The translations under genes and the position numbers were made by a program. A stretch of 64,000 nucleotides of DNA from Woeseiaceae bacterium. GTDB taxonomy: Bacteria > Pseudomonadota > Gammaproteobacteria > Steroidobacterales > Woeseiaceae. Numbering within the stretch: position 1 is the stretch's first letter; the number at the start of each line of letters is the position of its first letter. The notes beneath the pieces were generated by a model. That model was not told where the DNA came from, made no database searches, and was given only the letters and a program-made list of their open reading frames with translations. Positions 51,558 to 63,225 of the stretch are shown in pieces. Where the stretch lies: NCBI GenBank assembly GCA_021773055.1, contig JAJFKV010000071.1, positions 62,001 to 126,000 of the forward strand. Reading direction: 5' to 3'.

Positions 51558-53411
51558 CTACCCTGCTGCCGGCAGCTCGGCCGATGTCGAACCCATCTCT
51601 GTCGAATTAGCTGCAGTATCATTGGCCGCAGCCATTTCTTGTTGAACATCCAACCAGGATTGCATTCTCTGACAGTATTCACTCGATGATGCATCCATCT
51701 CGAAAATTGGGGCGAACTGCTGCAGTTTCTCAAAACACGCCGTGACGAGCTGTTGGCAATATTCCAGATCGAGGGAAAAGCTGGGCTCGAAACGCAACAG
51801 GAGTTCGAGCATCGCAGACTGAACATCATCGCACTCAAAATGTTGAAACAGATCGCACAGTTCGTTCGCAAATACCGCGCAATCCCGAAGTTTTTCCGCT
51901 TCGCTCTCTGGCGCTGCAAGTTTGCCTCTAGGAAGACCGCGAATTGACTCGATAATTGAGCCGGGAAGATTCCAGGTTTTTGCGACAGCCGCCCCCAGAT
52001 CGGAATAACAAACCCCAAGCACACCGCGTGCTGCTGCCCACTTGTTGAGGTTTTCGCTTTTCTGAAGTTTATTTATGTCCTCAAATTCCTCGGTGAAGTA
52101 ATACATCACAAGATTTTCGCCAAGGTTCTGACACATGCCGCAGATAAACGCTTCTTCCGCACCAGGCAATCTCTCTCGTTGCGCCAGATGTCTGGAGATC
52201 AGACCGCTCATAAATGACTTGATCATTGAGTCCTTCAATACGGCCGAATCGCCTTTCATGTGACCGAACAGGAAGAGGCTGTTTGCGGTCATTCGTACCT
52301 GTTCGATACCCAGAAAAACGACAGCTTGCGAGACATTCGTTATCTCCGCGACACGCGTGCCGTAATAAGCGGAGTTTACGAGTTTGAGAAGCTTCGCGGT
52401 GAGCGCGAAATCACGCAGGATTACATTGGCCAGTTTGTCCGCATTGGAATTACTAGTGTCTTCCGTTAGCCGATTGATGTCCGACAATGTACGAGAAATC
52501 GTCGGGAAATCGCCGGTGCGCTGCATGCGCCGCAATAAAAAATCGATCGTACTGTGGTTTGATCCGGCAGAGTCCGACTTGCCGGCGAGCCCGGCCTCAT
52601 TTAAGAACAGCTCGAAAGCTTCGCCCATTACCGAGCAATCGGCATAACGACCTTCGCGGCGTTTCTCAAAGGCACCAGAAAGAAAACGGGCAAATGCGGC
52701 CCCTTTTAGGCTCTTCATAATCGGAGAATAGTCGACGTCTCCACGGATTATCTTGATTTGGATTTGTTCGAGGGTCTGACCCTGCATCGCACGTTGGCCA
52801 GCTACAATTTCATAAAAAGTACTGCCCAACGCAAATACGTCGGTCCACGGACCCAACGGCTTTCCTTCAAAATGCTCGGGAGCCATGTAGCGCAATGTAC
52901 CGCTTGTGAACTCTCGCGGTTCACGGGCGATATCCACATACTGCGACAGGCCAAAGTCCATTACGCGCGGCATTCCGTCGGCAGCAACCAGCACGTTTCT
53001 CGGACTCAGATCCAGATGCAGGATTTCCTTGGCGTGTGCCGCGGCGAGTGCCTTCACAATTGACGAAATCAGCGGCACGGCCTCCTCTATCGAAAATGCA
53101 CCCTTGGCCTTCAGAATCTGCGCCAGTGTTTTTCCCTCAACGTACTCGAACACCAGATATGGTCCCGCGATGCACTGCCCAGCGTCGAATATGGGGATGA
53201 TATGGGGGTGCTTTAATCGACTCGATATCCGTGCTTCCAGTGGCGTACCGTCTTCCGCCATGCTGCACAATTCGGCATTTGTTTCGGTCAAGACCTTAAT
53301 TGCTACATGGCGATCCAGAGTTGGATCACGCGCCAGGTATACCGCTCCTTGCGAACCCTTGCCGACAGACCGGATCAGCTCATATCGACCGATCTTTTGA
53401 ACTGTGCTCAC
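51558..53411 (-). CDS. Ser/Thr kinase-like protein fused to an HDOD domain
   Basis: A 617-residue fusion. Residues about 8-270 are a Hanks-type kinase domain with VGKGSQGAVYLARD, VAIKVL and MDFGLSQ, but the catalytic loop reads HLDLSPRN rather than HRDLKPxN: the Arg before Asp and the loop Lys are replaced. Activity is possible but uncertain. Residues about 300-500 are an HDOD domain (FPTISRTLSDINRLTED, AKLLKLVNSAYYG, AVVFLGIEQVR, FICGMCQNLGENL), a domain linked to signalling and motility. I chose the GTG at 53411, with GGGG seven bases upstream, just before the kinase domain. No membrane helix is seen. Confidence 0.9.
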   Translation of the reverse strand: MSTVQKIGRYELIRSVGKGSQGAVYLARDPTLDRHVAIKVLTETNAELCSMAEDGTPLEARISSRLKHPHIIPIFDAGQCIAGPYLVFEYVEGKTLAQILKAKGAFSIEEAVPLISSIVKALAAAHAKEILHLDLSPRNVLVAADGMPRVMDFGLSQYVDIAREPREFTSGTLRYMAPEHFEGKPLGPWTDVFALGSTFYEIVAGQRAMQGQTLEQIQIKIIRGDVDYSPIMKSLKGAAFARFLSGAFEKRREGRYADCSVMGEAFELFLNEAGLAGKSDSAGSNHSTIDFLLRRMQRTGDFPTISRTLSDINRLTEDTSNSNADKLANVILRDFALTAKLLKLVNSAYYGTRVAEITNVSQAVVFLGIEQVRMTANSLFLFGHMKGDSAVLKDSMIKSFMSGLISRHLAQRERLPGAEEAFICGMCQNLGENLVMYYFTEEFEDINKLQKSENLNKWAAARGVLGVCYSDLGAAVAKTWNLPGSIIESIRGLPRGKLAAPESEAEKLRDCAVFANELCDLFQHFECDDVQSAMLELLLRFEPSFSLDLEYCQQLVTACFEKLQQFAPIFEMDASSSEYCQRMQSWLDVQQEMAAANDTAANSTEMGSTSAELPAAG

Positions 53412-53550
53412 TGTCGTACCCCGTTCACCTTGATGCGCAAAGCCGCCGTACGGACGAACATATCGAATGACGCTGCGGCGGCACCCAATATGTTTGATCC
53501 TCAACTTATCTTAGCGGCAGCTCGCGCATAAACCTTAGGTCGACAACGAG

Positions 53551-53937
53551 TTACTTGCGGGTGTAATAGGCCTTATCGGGAAGAACGTGCCGCACGCCAC
53601 CCTGGGGATTCGAGGAATCACCTTTGTAACGGGGAATTAGATGGATATGGACATGGAATATGCTTTGTCCTGCGGCCGCATTTACGTTCACGCCTACGTT
53701 GTAGCCAGCGGGACTGAATTCTTCGTCCAGTTTCACCTTTTCGGCAGCGATCAACTCCATGCAGGCAGTCGCCTCTTCAGGAGTTAGGTCGAAGAAGTTG
53801 GCACAGTGCCGAAACGGGATAATCAGGGAATGACCCGGGCTGACGGGGTAGCTGTCGCGCGAGCTGTAAGCAAGCGCATTACTCCCCGTCACCCCGCGTG
53901 GTGTGCAAAAAAGGCAAGGGTCGTTCGGATCACTCAC
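53551..53937 (-). CDS. HIT-family (histidine triad) nucleotide hydrolase/transferase in the apr operon
   Basis: A 128-residue histidine triad protein. The triad HVHIHLIP has the catalytic histidines at 95, 97 and 99, and the N-terminal CLFC (8-11) with later histidines matches a zinc-binding HIT subgroup. HIT proteins cleave nucleoside monophosphates linked to phosphate, amine or sulfate, and the superfamily includes enzymes acting on adenylylsulfate (APS). I chose a GTG start two bases after the aprA stop codon, so it is translated with aprA. Position next to the APS-forming enzyme suggests a role in APS turnover, but this is inference; a housekeeping purine-phosphoramidase role is the alternative. 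Confidence 0.85.
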   Translation of the reverse strand: MSDPNDPCLFCTPRGVTGSNALAYSSRDSYPVSPGHSLIIPFRHCANFFDLTPEEATACMELIAAEKVKLDEEFSPAGYNVGVNVNAAAGQSIFHVHIHLIPRYKGDSSNPQGGVRHVLPDKAYYTRK

Positions 53938-53939
53938 CG

Positions 53940-55784
53940 CTAATCGACGATGTGATAAACGGGCGCCTTCTCCATCGACCACTCATTGGCTTCACGGTTG
54001 TATTGGGACAAGGTGAAGCAGTGCCAATCGGTGTCGTCCAGTTTCATATGGTCGCCGCGATAGTAGTAGCCCGGCCAGCGGGTTTCTTTGCGGAACATCG
54101 TGTGGTGCGTCACGCACTCCGAGGCCAGGATTCGATGGTTCAGCTCCCATGACCGCTGCAACTGATGCAGGTCCTCGGCGCCGAGGTGGTGCATGTCCTC
54201 CTTGAGCATCTCCAGCAATTCCAAGCCGCGGTTAAGCAGGTGTTCGTTGGTCGTGTAATGCGAGCTGATACCGCCAACGTATTCGTCCATGATCTTCTCC
54301 AGACGCTGCAATCCATGGATTGGCAACAGGTAGCTCGGCGAAACAGTTCCAGCAACAATCTCGTTGCGACCGACGGAGTAGTTCTCCATGGGCTGGTAGA
54401 CGACCTTCTTGAGGTTCTGGTACTCATCCTCGCTGACCTCAGGTGCGTCTTTGCCAAGGTCGTCGACGTATTTGATCGCGGCCTTGCCAGCAATTCTGCC
54501 TTCGGCGAACGATCCGGACGAGAACTTGTGAGCCGTGCCACCGATGGTGTCTCCGGCACCGAAGAGCCCATCGACGGTCATCATGCGGTTATAGCCCCAC
54601 TGGTACTCATCAGGTGCATAGTCCTCCGGACCACTCGCCCAAGCACCGGAGCAGGTAGCGTGCGAACCCATAACGTATGGCTCCGATGTCGTCAGTTCAG
54701 GATTAGTTTCTTTGGGATCGATGTTCTGTGCTGCCCAGACGACCGCCTGCCCGACCGTCATGCCGAGGAAATTCTCCCAGCCGACTGTCTCTTTGTGCGG
54801 GTCCTGGAAGGCCTCTTTAGTTACCATGCGAATGGGCCCACGGCCTGCCTTTAACTCTTCCAGGAACGCGTGATTTCGGAGGCAAGTCGGTACCGGTTGA
54901 TGATCAACGTAATCACCCACCATTGCTTTGGTGTTTTCATACCAGGTGGACTCGTATTCATTGCCATACGCGTTTTCGGTGTACGTCTTCAGGTGCAGGA
55001 AGTAGGCGCCGACTGGTCCGTAGCCGTCTTTGAATCGCGTAAGAACAATACGATTCTCCATCTGCGTCATTTTGGCGCCCGCGAGGATAGGTAATGCATA
55101 AGCAGAAGCGCTGCTCCATGGGGCATACCAGGTACGGCCCATACCTTCGCCAACCGAACGCGGTTTGAAGATGTGCGATGCGCCACCGGCGGCGACGATA
55201 ACCGCCTTGGCGCGGAACACGTAAAACTCACCGGTACGAACATTAAAACCAACGGCGCCAGCAACGCGGTTTTCCTTCTTCTTGTCCATCAACAGATGGG
55301 TCACCATGATCCGGTTGTAGACTTTGGTGGCGGCCTTGCGAGCGGCCTCGGCGACGATCGGCTTGTAGCTTTCGCCATGAATCATGATCTGCCACTTGCC
55401 TTCCCGCATGTACCGGCCGGTCTCCGGGTCCTTCATGATCGGCAGACCCCATTCCTCGAACATGTGCACAGTAGCGTCTACATGCCGGGCGATATCGTAG
55501 CCAAGGTCTTCGCGCACAAGACCCATGAGGTCGTTGCGGGCATACCGAACGTGATCTTCGGGCTTGTTCTCATCCCATTGCATGCCCATGTAGCAGTTGA
55601 TTGCATACAGGCCTTGTGCAACAGCGCCACTGCGCTCGATGTTCGCCTTCTCGACGACGACTACCTTCTTGTCGCGCCCCCAAAATCTGGATTCGTAGGT
55701 AGCTCCGCAGCCCGCCATGCCGCCGCCGATGACCAGGACATCGGAATCGACGAATACGGTTTTTTTCCCTCTGAACAGTCCCAT
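53940..55784 (-). CDS. aprA: Adenylylsulfate reductase alpha subunit AprA
   Basis: A 614-residue FAD subunit of APS reductase. In sulfur oxidisers it works in reverse, joining sulfite and AMP to give APS in the cytoplasm. The FAD motif is VLVIGGGMAGCGATYE, with VVEKANIERSGAVAQGLYAINCYMG, MRNHAFLEELKAGRGP-like (here CLRNHAFLEELKAGRGPIR) and the C-terminal TRWPGYYYRGDHMKLDD. The ribosome-binding site AAGGAG is strong. Its ATG overlaps the aprB stop (TAATG). It lies with aprM, tusA and dsrE2, and dsrAB are close by, as in oxidising lineages. Confidence 0.98.
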   Translation of the reverse strand: MGLFRGKKTVFVDSDVLVIGGGMAGCGATYESRFWGRDKKVVVVEKANIERSGAVAQGLYAINCYMGMQWDENKPEDHVRYARNDLMGLVREDLGYDIARHVDATVHMFEEWGLPIMKDPETGRYMREGKWQIMIHGESYKPIVAEAARKAATKVYNRIMVTHLLMDKKKENRVAGAVGFNVRTGEFYVFRAKAVIVAAGGASHIFKPRSVGEGMGRTWYAPWSSASAYALPILAGAKMTQMENRIVLTRFKDGYGPVGAYFLHLKTYTENAYGNEYESTWYENTKAMVGDYVDHQPVPTCLRNHAFLEELKAGRGPIRMVTKEAFQDPHKETVGWENFLGMTVGQAVVWAAQNIDPKETNPELTTSEPYVMGSHATCSGAWASGPEDYAPDEYQWGYNRMMTVDGLFGAGDTIGGTAHKFSSGSFAEGRIAGKAAIKYVDDLGKDAPEVSEDEYQNLKKVVYQPMENYSVGRNEIVAGTVSPSYLLPIHGLQRLEKIMDEYVGGISSHYTTNEHLLNRGLELLEMLKEDMHHLGAEDLHQLQRSWELNHRILASECVTHHTMFRKETRWPGYYYRGDHMKLDDTDWHCFTLSQYNREANEWSMEKAPVYHIVD

Positions 55785-56245
55785 TACACTACTCCTTGCT
55801 TGAGCTGGTCCGGAGTTAGCGCAGGCAGCTCATCGATGTTGAGTCCAGCCGGTTCGTGCGCGAGCTCCTGGGAGTTAATAGCCTCCTGGCTGGGCGCATC
55901 AAAATCGGATGCTGACTTGATCGATCCCCATTCCGTGGTGCGAATTGGGGACTCAAAATTCTTCTCGCGTCCATCCCGGAATTTTATCTTCCAGGCGATA
56001 GTGGCCTTTTCCTCGTCCCGGATCGGGCGGACGCTGTGACCCAGGGGAGCGAAGTCGGCATAACCTCGAACGTCGATCGCATTTTGCGGACACGCCTTCA
56101 CACAGGAGTAGCATTCCCAACAGAAATTAGGCTCGATGTTGAAAGCCCGTCTATGCGTTGGGTCAATGTGCATGATGTCGGAAGGACAAATATCCACGCA
56201 CTCACCGCAACCATCACAACTTGTCATATAAACAAAAGTAGGCAT
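55784..56245 (-). CDS. aprB: Adenylylsulfate reductase beta subunit AprB
   Basis: A 153-residue electron-transfer subunit with two [4Fe-4S] clusters: CDGCGECVDICP (about 10-21) and CWECYSCVKACP (about 42-53). The C-terminal arm after VRPIRDEEKATIAWKIKFRDG wraps around AprA in known structures. It takes the electrons released by sulfite oxidation and passes them to a membrane partner, here probably AprM. It lies five bases after aprM and overlaps aprA by one base. Confidence 0.98.
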   Translation of the reverse strand: MPTFVYMTSCDGCGECVDICPSDIMHIDPTHRRAFNIEPNFCWECYSCVKACPQNAIDVRGYADFAPLGHSVRPIRDEEKATIAWKIKFRDGREKNFESPIRTTEWGSIKSASDFDAPSQEAINSQELAHEPAGLNIDELPALTPDQLKQGVV

Positions 56246-56250
56246 ATCGA

Positions 56251-57000
56251 TTAGCTCCCTTCGTTATGAGTTGCAGGAAGAGTGGAAGCGCCGCTCGCCT
56301 CCTCTACCCTTCGTTGAAAGGCGACTACCGGCTTGAAGAACATGTGAGCTAATTTCGACCAGCGAACAGATCCAAACAACATCGTGGTAAATAGAATGTA
56401 GAAGCCGAAGACGACTTTGGTCACAGCGAGGTTGCCGGTCGACTGCACAATTTCCCAGATGAAGGCGAAGGTGACGCTGCCGAGCAGAGTCACGATGAAC
56501 AAATCTGCCATCACGAGACGGAAAACAGGTTGGCCATCTTTCGCCACGTTTACCCTGAGGAGGAAGAAAAACCAGTAGCCACCAATCAGAAGCATGATGA
56601 CGCCAATGTTCCACAGGAGCGGAATGATCGCCGGCGTTGGGGTGGCATGTGTTGGGTACCCGAAAATCATCACGACCGTCGTGACCAGGTAGAGAATAAA
56701 GCCGTAGAACATCAACAAGTGGGAGATTCTTCTTTGCACGTTGCAGAATTCGCCGGCGGTCGCAACCTCGACCGCGAGGGTCTTGATAGCCAGCGAAGCC
56801 TTCTCTCCACCGCTAAGCTTCCTGGTCGCCGCTGCCTGTGATTTTTTTTGTCGCAGCACGAAATACTTGGCGCTGTTCTTGTGAAGCATGTCGGCAACTG
56901 TTCCAACAAAAACCGCAAATATCATCAATGCAATGTAGATCTGCATGGCTGAAGTCGGCAGAAAAACCGTTAATTCTGCGAACGGATTGCTAGTGAACAT
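56251..57000 (-). CDS. aprM: AprM-like membrane anchor of APS reductase
   Basis: A 249-residue membrane protein with about five helices (near 18-38, 95-115, 125-150, 165-188 and 195-215). It has histidines in RRISHLLMFYGFILY and RWSKLAHMFFKPV that could bind haem, as in NarI/DsrM-like cytochrome b domains. Gene order aprM-aprB-aprA matches sulfur-oxidising gammaproteobacteria, in which AprM is thought to link AprBA to the quinone pool. The name is given on position and topology. A qmoABC set, the other known partner, is not in the window. Confidence 0.82.
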   Translation of the reverse strand: MFTSNPFAELTVFLPTSAMQIYIALMIFAVFVGTVADMLHKNSAKYFVLRQKKSQAAATRKLSGGEKASLAIKTLAVEVATAGEFCNVQRRISHLLMFYGFILYLVTTVVMIFGYPTHATPTPAIIPLLWNIGVIMLLIGGYWFFFLLRVNVAKDGQPVFRLVMADLFIVTLLGSVTFAFIWEIVQSTGNLAVTKVVFGFYILFTTMLFGSVRWSKLAHMFFKPVVAFQRRVEEASGASTLPATHNEGS

Positions 57001-57440: not shown

Positions 57441-57980
57441 TTAAATGAAAAGATTGATATCAGATTGCGTCGCACACTCAATGTATGTCGCCGCGCCGCC
57501 GAGTTCCGGGCCCTCGATCATGTCATCGAGAGAGTACTCGAACAGGTCCAGTGTCATCTGGCATGCGATCATTCGCACGTCCGCGTCGAGGCAGGCCTCA
57601 CGCAGGTCTTCTATCGATGCGACACCCTTTTTGTTCATCAGGTTCTTCATCATCTTGGTGCAGGCGGCGTCAACCCCGGGAATTGCTGTCAGGAGATTGG
57701 GCAGCCCCATATGTGCACCCATCATCGGCATTTTCATTGCCGGATTTCCAGAGGCCGTCAGTTGCAGGTCGAGTTTCTTCAGCAAAAGTGGCAGTCCGTA
57801 GAAGGTAAAAAACATGGTCACTGGCAAACCCATCGCTGCTGCCGTTGAGGCGAGAATGAACGGTGGGTATGCCCAGTCGAGGCTACCCTTAGTTACGATA
57901 ATCGACATGCTTTTGGTTGCTGGAACGGCGACCGGAGCGCTTTGCGCAGCGTCAGATACGATTTGGGCTTCACTGGACAT
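57441..57980 (-). CDS. dsrE2: DsrE2-like sulfur-transfer protein
   Basis: A 179-residue protein of the DsrE/DsrF/DrsH-like family. It has the N-terminal SMSIIVTKGSLDWAYPPFILASTAAAMG, FFTFYGLPLLLKK, the PMMGAHMGLPNLLTAIPG segment and cysteines in REACLDAD and MIACQMTLDLF, where the family carries sulfur. DsrE2 proteins are encoded next to tusA in sulfur oxidisers and take part in cytoplasmic sulfur relay. The start has AGAGGTG. It is the first gene of the tusA-apr transcription unit and is divergent from an ArsR regulator. Confidence 0.9.
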   Translation of the reverse strand: MSSEAQIVSDAAQSAPVAVPATKSMSIIVTKGSLDWAYPPFILASTAAAMGLPVTMFFTFYGLPLLLKKLDLQLTASGNPAMKMPMMGAHMGLPNLLTAIPGVDAACTKMMKNLMNKKGVASIEDLREACLDADVRMIACQMTLDLFEYSLDDMIEGPELGGAATYIECATQSDINLFI

Positions 57981-61850: not shown

Positions 61851-61965
61851 TATTGGGCTCCAGACCCCGTGTCTCTTTCATTCATGGGCGAACCAGGCGT
61901 CCGCTGGAAGTACGAACAGAAACCATATATCATAAAAATCGAATATACGAGGGGTGGGAACTATC

Positions 61966-63225
61966 ATGGCGAAGAAACCACACGAGTCTCCATTGTTGGA
62001 TCAGTTGGAAGATGGACCGTGGCCAAGTTTCGTAACCGGCCTGAAGCGACTGGCGAACGACGGTGACAAACCACACGCCAAAATGATGGGCGATCTTGTA
62101 GGCCAGCTTGAGCATTCGTACGAGACTCGAACGGGGTTTTGGAAAGGCGGCACCGTTAGTGTTTTTGGCTACGGCGGCGGCGTTATTCCCCGATTCTCGG
62201 AAGTCCCCGAGAAGTTTCCCGAATCCAAAGAATTTCATACCTTACGCGTACAGCCACCACCGGCATTTCATTATTCGACCGAATTATTGCGCAATATGTG
62301 CGATATCTGGGAAGAACACGGTTCGGGCCTGATTGCCCTTCACGGTCAGTCGGGAGACATCATGTTCCAGGGCTGCAAGACCGAAAAGGTACAGCCAGCT
62401 TTTGACGAGCTGAATAAGATTGGTCTGGACATGGGTGGTGCCGGCCCCGCGTTGAGGACATCAATGAGCTGTGTCGGCCACGCCCGCTGCGAGCAATCCT
62501 GTTATGACGAAGTGCGCGCTCACCGTACGACCATCAATGGCCTGCTCGACGAGATGCACCGGCCTGCGCTGCCCTACAAGTTCAAGTTCAAATTTTCCGG
62601 TTGTCCAAACGACTGCGTGAACGCCATCCACCGCGCGGATTTCGCGACGATAGGCACTTGGCGCGATGACATGCTGGTCGATCAGGAAAAGGTTAAAGAA
62701 CACGTGGCAAAGGTTGGTCGCAAGCAAATGATCGATACCGTGATCACCAATTGCCCTACCCGTGCACTCAGCCTGAATGACGACGACACGCTGGATATCG
62801 ACAACAAAAGCTGCGTTCGCTGCATGCACTGCATCAACGTCATGCCAAAAGCACTTTCTCCGGGTAACGATAAGGGCGTCTCCATCCTGATGGGCGGTAA
62901 ACGTTCATTGAAGATCGGTGACACCATGGGCACCGTCATCGTGCCGTTCATGAAACTTGAAAGTGACGAAGACTTCGAGAAATTCAATGACCTGGCTGAA
63001 ACTGTCGTTGATTTCTTCGCGGAAAATGCGCTCGAGCATGAGCGTGTTGGTGAAACCATTGATCGGATTGGCCTTGCCAATTTCCTTGATGCGATCGGCG
63101 TCGATGTCGATCCCAACATGGTGAACCATCCACGCACCAGCTCTTACGTGCGAACGGATGACTGGGATGAAGAAGCCAAGAAATGGCACGATCGCAAGAA
63201 CGCCACGGCCGATAAGTCGGCATAA
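61966..63225 (+). CDS. dsrA: Reverse-type dissimilatory sulfite reductase alpha subunit DsrA
   Basis: A 419-residue DsrA. In sulfur oxidisers DsrAB oxidises sulfur, delivered on DsrC, to sulfite in the cytoplasm. Siroheme-[4Fe-4S] ligands are in SCVGHARCEQSC and FSGCPNDCVNA, and the ferredoxin domain has CVRCMHC. The ATG at 61966 is preceded by AGGGGTGGG. The reverse direction is inferred from apr, tusA and dsrE2 nearby rather than from any one residue. It is first in a dsrAB operon and divergent from the TauD-like/cysG operon, with a 115-base shared promoter region. Confidence 0.97.
   Translation: MAKKPHESPLLDQLEDGPWPSFVTGLKRLANDGDKPHAKMMGDLVGQLEHSYETRTGFWKGGTVSVFGYGGGVIPRFSEVPEKFPESKEFHTLRVQPPPAFHYSTELLRNMCDIWEEHGSGLIALHGQSGDIMFQGCKTEKVQPAFDELNKIGLDMGGAGPALRTSMSCVGHARCEQSCYDEVRAHRTTINGLLDEMHRPALPYKFKFKFSGCPNDCVNAIHRADFATIGTWRDDMLVDQEKVKEHVAKVGRKQMIDTVITNCPTRALSLNDDDTLDIDNKSCVRCMHCINVMPKALSPGNDKGVSILMGGKRSLKIGDTMGTVIVPFMKLESDEDFEKFNDLAETVVDFFAENALEHERVGETIDRIGLANFLDAIGVDVDPNMVNHPRTSSYVRTDDWDEEAKKWHDRKNATADKSA

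Follow-up and report, generated by a model that had tools for sequence, protein, structure and literature searches.

In the oxidation of sulfite by way of adenylylsulfate (APS), APS reductase (AprBA) forms APS from sulfite and AMP, and ATP sulfurylase (Sat) then converts APS and pyrophosphate to ATP and sulfate; this Apr-Sat route is depicted as two enzymes in series that earn the cell ATP. The ADP sulfurylase (APS:phosphate adenylyltransferase) of Thiobacillus denitrificans, the subject of Bruser et al. 2000, reportedly also acts on APS, and we take it to be a GalT-like protein of about 40 kDa that is related to the histidine triad (HIT) proteins at the superfamily level. To our knowledge, Fhit, a HIT protein of the Ap3A hydrolase branch, does not occur in apr operons. 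In Allochromatium vinosum, sat is located upstream of aprMBA, and the portion of that report available to us mentions no HIT gene (PMC3779200). According to a passage in a review, AMP is freed from APS and from adenosine phosphoramidate by Fhit proteins of the HIT family, in agreement with a sequence-only reading of the present locus, which had held that Fhit-type HIT enzymes hydrolyse APS; the same passage adds that Fhit can form adenosine phosphoramidate from APS, and the reference list includes a paper whose title attributes hydrolase as well as phosphorylase activity towards APS to the HIT proteins Hint4 and DcpS (PMC7072326). A search of paper listings revealed no report of a linkage between HIT and apr genes. 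The fold and the chemistry are known, and a conserved operon role of a HIT protein with apr is apparently undescribed.

The window, i.e., the whole 64,000-nucleotide stretch that was analysed, is located on contig C69 and carries the minus-strand gene order aprM-aprB-aprA-HIT, the aprMBA part of which is shared with A. vinosum. The first gene encodes an aprM-like membrane protein (56251-57000), named from its position and from a QmoC similarity below the cut-off (NF038018, 41.4 bits versus a cut-off of 300). It is followed by aprB, encoding the APS reductase beta subunit (55784-56245; TIGR02060, 194.1 bits), by aprA, encoding the alpha subunit (53940-55784; TIGR02061, 975.8 bits, cut-off 641.75), and by the gene of a 128-residue HIT-family protein (53551-53937). 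The reading frame of the latter begins with a GTG at 53937, and bases 53939-53938 make up the whole gap to the aprA stop codon, just as the sequence-only reading had stated in placing the start two bases behind that stop. The exact start is unsure, because the codon aligned with it in the relative G027 is not a start codon and because a second in-frame GTG is present 45 bases upstream, at 53982 within aprA. Judged from the sequence, the G027 copy probably starts further upstream and overlaps aprA. The upstream neighbour of the cluster is the sulfur carrier gene dsrE2 (57441-57980, minus strand; NF047629, 217 bits, cut-off 210), and the pathway context includes dsrA, the dissimilatory-type sulfite reductase alpha gene (61954-63225, plus strand; TIGR02064, 570.6 bits). 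The presence of dsrE2, cysG and dsrA near apr suggests that the host is a reverse-Dsr sulfur oxidiser, a direction of the pathway that we infer. Directly downstream of the HIT gene, we observed a gene for a Ser/Thr kinase-HDOD fusion protein (51558-53504, minus strand), which is also found downstream of HIT in G027 (L092).

The HIT protein showed a score of 74.3 bits against the Pfam HIT family PF01230 (cut-off 21.5), which establishes its membership in the superfamily. Inspection of the sequence revealed the catalytic motif H95-V-H-I-H99 (53641-53655, minus strand) and a CxxC pair, C8-L-F-C11 (53905-53916, minus strand), which we take to be of the zinc-site type. In the alignment, H95, H97 and H99 were invariant in all 81 core rows, all seven rows of a second clade and all 30 rows of HIT proteins unlinked to apr, and C8 and C11 were invariant in the 81 core and seven second-clade rows. 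The AlphaFold model (mean pLDDT of 73.6) is of moderate quality and has the HIT fold: the best 50 of 397 Foldseek matches were all HIT family members, with TM-scores of only about 0.4-0.6 (for 3imi, an E-value of 1.2e-6, a TM-score of 0.60 and an rmsd of 9.4).

We compared the protein with the described members of the superfamily and found the overall likeness to be accompanied by clear differences. It shares the HIT fold and the HxHxH motif with Fhit, although it scored only 44.4 bits against 1fhi. The mycobacterial Ap4A phosphorylase Rv2613c (3ano, 3wo5) was among its best sequence and fold matches (58.4 bits for 3ano); however, the Rv2613c chain has 218 residues as opposed to 128, with the match confined to its residues 88-180, and the two proteins differ at a conserved position. 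Gln91, invariant in the 81 core rows, aligned with residue 147 of Rv2613c, which is Ser in 3ano and Gln in 3wo5, a structure titled as the S147Q form of Rv2613c. Gln at this position is presumably a mark of the hydrolase members, and the functional weight given to residue 147 in Ap4A phosphorylases is likewise our assumption. The score against NF052622 (Ap4A phosphorylase / ATP adenylyltransferase) was 64.1 bits, far below the cut-off of 290. HinT, the purine nucleoside phosphoramidase, has the HIT fold in common with the window protein, whereas the score against the HinT equivalog NF007965 was only 40 bits (cut-off 206), and four HinT-like paralogue rows formed a clade apart from it in the HIT tree (100/100). 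Finally, in contrast to the GalT-like two-domain architecture of the T. denitrificans ADP sulfurylase type, the window protein consists of a single HIT domain. Two further, weaker HIT matches were present in the same genome (C69:38441-38749 and C49:24980-25231). Across the core, second-clade and unlinked rows, no residue cleanly separated the linked from the unlinked HIT proteins; nearly all motif residues were common to both, so that nothing in the sequence names APS, and we claim no APS-specific signature.

The coupling of HIT to aprA extended well beyond the window. A contig scan with three apr-linked HIT queries revealed 412 loci, the best 80 of which were examined (65-84% identity). Among these 80, aprA was found within 5 kb in 72; it was upstream of HIT and co-directional with it in 71 of them, and in one (L152) it was encoded on the other strand. 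The remaining eight (L097, L103, L114, L128, L130, L166, L167 and L171) lie at a contig end with only 235-2406 bases upstream. Because this set was selected for closeness, a separate class sample of 369 genomes, including the window's own, was drawn without regard to apr and searched with a HIT cut-off of E <= 1e-20; some genomes of the sample had also contributed rows to the HIT profile, which favours their detection. The sample contained aprA in 110 genomes and HIT in 45. HIT was present in 31 of the 110 aprA genomes as compared with 14 of the 259 others (Fisher P 7e-9), and in 17 of the 31 it lay within 5 kb downstream of aprA, in 15 cases on the same strand, versus about 0.05 expected by chance. 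The other 14 had no HIT within 5 kb downstream of aprA, six of them carrying it on another contig. A HIT of the core type, scoring at least 236 bits, occurred in ten genomes of the class sample and was linked in eight; in G190 and G331, it was near a contig end, with no aprA match. The linkage is real and far beyond chance. Culturable hosts of the gene include Thiohalophilus thiocyanatoxydans DSM 16326 (L127) and Sideroxydans lithotrophicus.

In the HIT tree (79 proteins, 131 columns; 25 of the 76 inner branches open), 37 rows formed a core clade (99/95) and seven rows a second one (99/99), both wholly apr-linked. Since the core rows were picked from loci with a visible aprA and included repeats of two genomes, the purity of the core clade rests on the best 80 loci and the class sample and not on the tree. 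A single apr-linked HIT, that of L228, was placed among unlinked relatives. Three changes are needed to account for the apr-linkage label on this tree, no fewer than two of which are forced by the starred branches. The AprA proteins of Myxococcota and Rokubacteria branched off far from that of the window in the AprA tree (100/97 on one side and 100/99 on the other), while their HIT proteins grouped with the window's HIT (100/99). The two trees thus disagree, which indicates that HIT and AprA were brought together more than once. The sequence-only view that HIT is coupled to aprA was upheld; this linkage is conserved in other bacteria with apr genes, and the association arose repeatedly.

The architectures of the clusters were similar but not identical. 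In the window group, HIT directly follows aprA (L092, L093 and L094, within 18 bases). Outside this group, the usual order was aprM-aprB-aprA, an NTF2-like protein of about 115 residues, a SlyD-like FKBP, a TPR protein and HIT, often with an oppositely oriented DUF4279 gene before HIT. The name NTF2-like is descriptive, as the protein had no match in Pfam, and the SlyD-like FKBP scored 62 bits against PRK10737 (cut-off 174); both are possibly Apr maturation factors. At L144:2601-3542 and in relatives of that locus, we observed the same arrangement: among the 37 loci L202-L238, 35 have the NTF2-like protein behind aprA, and 32 have the FKBP, encoded on the same strand; G314, a member of the window's genus, has neither. 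In a Myxococcota metagenome-assembled genome (L104), the order was aprA, an HdrA-like gene, one further gene, qmoC (396.2 bits, cut-off 300) and HIT, the start of HIT overlapping the stop of qmoC; the AprA of L104 was 48% identical to that of the window.

Within the window's genus, the slot behind aprA was variable. HIT follows aprA in G000, G027 and G031, some 30 residues of HIT are all that is left behind aprA in G051, and G016 retains a C-terminal piece of HIT at a contig end. An SpdA/CpdA-type metallophosphoesterase follows aprA in G038, G022, G026, G012, G036, G009, G025 and G314, and G060 has neither of the two; the comparison leaves out G002, G013 and the extra apr copies in G012 and G026. 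HIT is therefore dispensable, since in close relatives its place holds a metallophosphoesterase or a truncated HIT, or is empty. The occurrence of two unrelated phosphoesterase families in one slot may point to a shared need. As a general partner of apr, the metallophosphoesterase was rejected: when 80 of the 110 aprA genomes were searched, 10 had a match (E <= 1e-20), and only in G314 was it next to aprA. We also observed that G023 (L046) and G047 (L047) carry sat, a C-terminal aprA remnant and the metallophosphoesterase, with aprMB and most of aprA gone.

To turn to Sat, the sequence-only reading was right that the window contains no sat gene, and it had proposed that HIT could finish sulfite oxidation without Sat. 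The genome assembly comprises 89 contigs (89.27% complete, 5.55% contamination) and contains a single PF01747 match, located on contig C60 (242.5 bits); it is a full-length sat gene encoding 395 residues beside cysC. The sequence-only reading had named a sat gene elsewhere in the genome as counting against its proposal. The protein scored 367.5 bits against TIGR00339, above the cut-off of 322.95, and 362.2 bits against NF003166, below the cut-off of 387. Contig C60 shared synteny with G027 (DNA about 77% identical) and was equal to the window in G+C, and an origin of this sat as contamination or stray DNA was rejected for these reasons. Sat proteins 68-71% identical to it are encoded in the apr/HIT clusters L099, L144, L145, L152 and L271, so that the host's Sat could serve the dissimilatory path; a similarly close Sat is located beside HIT at a contig end in L166. 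In addition, satA adjoins aprM in the HIT-bearing locus L100, and sat lies upstream of aprM in L271 and L272, which also bear HIT. When 50 of the 80 loci were searched at the genome level, 49 of the 50 HIT genomes showed a PF01747 match, the miss being G130; a few of them, G100 for example, have as their sole PF01747 frame one of the long size of Sat-kinase-like proteins (582 residues), and the count does not demonstrate a dissimilatory Sat in each genome. The claim of a Sat-free ending thus did not hold, and because Sat coexists with HIT, we regard HIT as an addition to the pathway and no substitute for Sat.

We propose that the HIT protein is a putative accessory nucleotide hydrolase of the AprMBA-Sat route that cleaves APS or APS-derived adenylyl compounds to AMP, a proposal to which we give an even chance of being correct. 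The protein would attack the alpha-phosphorus of APS, or of APS-derived adenylyl compounds such as adenosine phosphoramidate, and a covalent adenylyl-histidine would form, from which water would then free AMP. A pile-up of APS might in this manner be prevented when Sat or pyrophosphate is limiting, and AMP would be returned to AprBA. The intact motif, the position in the operon, the conserved and repeated linkage and the coexistence with Sat genes are observations; the substrate, hydrolysis over phosphorolysis and the role as a relief valve are inferred. Against an accessory hydrolase of this kind, the hydrolysis of APS wastes a high-energy bond, and no HIT of this type was found at E <= 1e-20 in 79 of the 110 aprA genomes. 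In its widest form, the proposal would be that of a putative dedicated, operon-encoded APS hydrolase in dissimilatory sulfur oxidisers of several phyla. The HIT superfamily would have supplied this enzyme on two or more occasions, and as a relief valve it would let APS reductase oxidise sulfite without coupling to the formation of ATP by Sat; in part of the window's genus, an unrelated metallophosphoesterase would fill the slot instead. We hold this wide form tentatively, as somewhat more likely to be wrong than right. If true, a third conserved APS enzyme would alter the energy balance and the regulation of the Apr-Sat route, and the APS hydrolysis known from HIT proteins would gain a biological home.

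The homology of the protein to Fhit, HinT and the Ap4A enzymes is also consistent with metabolite repair or alarmone clearance, in which HIT would hydrolyse adenosine phosphoramidate, Ap3A, Ap4A or adenylylated by-products of a high APS flux and would act little on APS itself. HIT hydrolases are broad in their substrates, and adenosine phosphoramidate is a compound that Fhit can make from APS (passage in PMC7072326). General clearance, however, needs no linkage to apr, and the two weaker HIT matches in the genome could do the job; we consider this explanation unlikely, although a real contender.

Slightly less likely still is that HIT, working beside Sat, phosphorolyses APS (APS + phosphate -> ADP + sulfate) as an ADP sulfurylase. 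The dual activity named in the title on Hint4 and DcpS (reference list of PMC7072326), the rank of the mycobacterial Ap4A phosphorylase among the best PDB sequence matches and the lack of a GalT-like match in the window's own genome would fit such an enzyme, whereas Gln in place of Ser147 and the low NF052622 score point away from it. Furthermore, a GalT-like gene, seen for example at L144:6651-7742 and possibly encoding a phosphorolytic ADP sulfurylase, was found in 28 of the 67 HIT genomes searched, a count in which four or more genomes appear twice (G128/G271, G113/G455, G027/G099 and G144/G301) and two (G123 and G133) match the query at 40% identity or less; after correction, it is 24 of about 63 genomes, with matches at 64% or more. 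In L223 (G366) and L230 (G249), a single neighbourhood comprises satA, aprMBA, HIT in convergent orientation and, next to HIT, the GalT-like gene. HIT need not be the phosphorylase, since this candidate coexists with it and adjoins it in these two loci, and the idea of HIT as the sole APS phosphorylase was rejected because of the coexistence. As a separate observation, L223 and L230 bring together three candidate APS-consuming enzymes.

An ordinary HIT gene that merely travels with the apr cluster and has no role in the pathway would explain why HIT is absent or decayed in close relatives. This is improbable in view of two or more independent apr-linked HIT clades, the coupling of HIT to two different last genes (aprA and qmoC) and the disagreement of the HIT tree with that of the associated AprA lineages. 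The notion that HIT alone finishes APS in this organism is very improbable and mostly refuted by its own sat-cysC pair, the sat matches in nearly all HIT genomes searched and the sat genes of L100, L271 and L272, even though the window-genus HIT loci with a visible upstream side (G000 and G027) have no sat next to aprM and six of the seven such metallophosphoesterase loci do (G038, G022, G026, G012, G009 and G314; not G036).

The relatives of HIT that are unlinked to apr had varied gene surroundings. We observed that several of these unlinked HIT proteins, members of one broad subfamily with that of the window, are encoded near a protein of 308-384 residues, directly in L250, L265, L268 and L274 and within 2 kb in L251. 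In the two cases tested (L250 and L274), this neighbour weakly matched a PADLOC HNH model, and the two genes may form a HIT-restriction pair.
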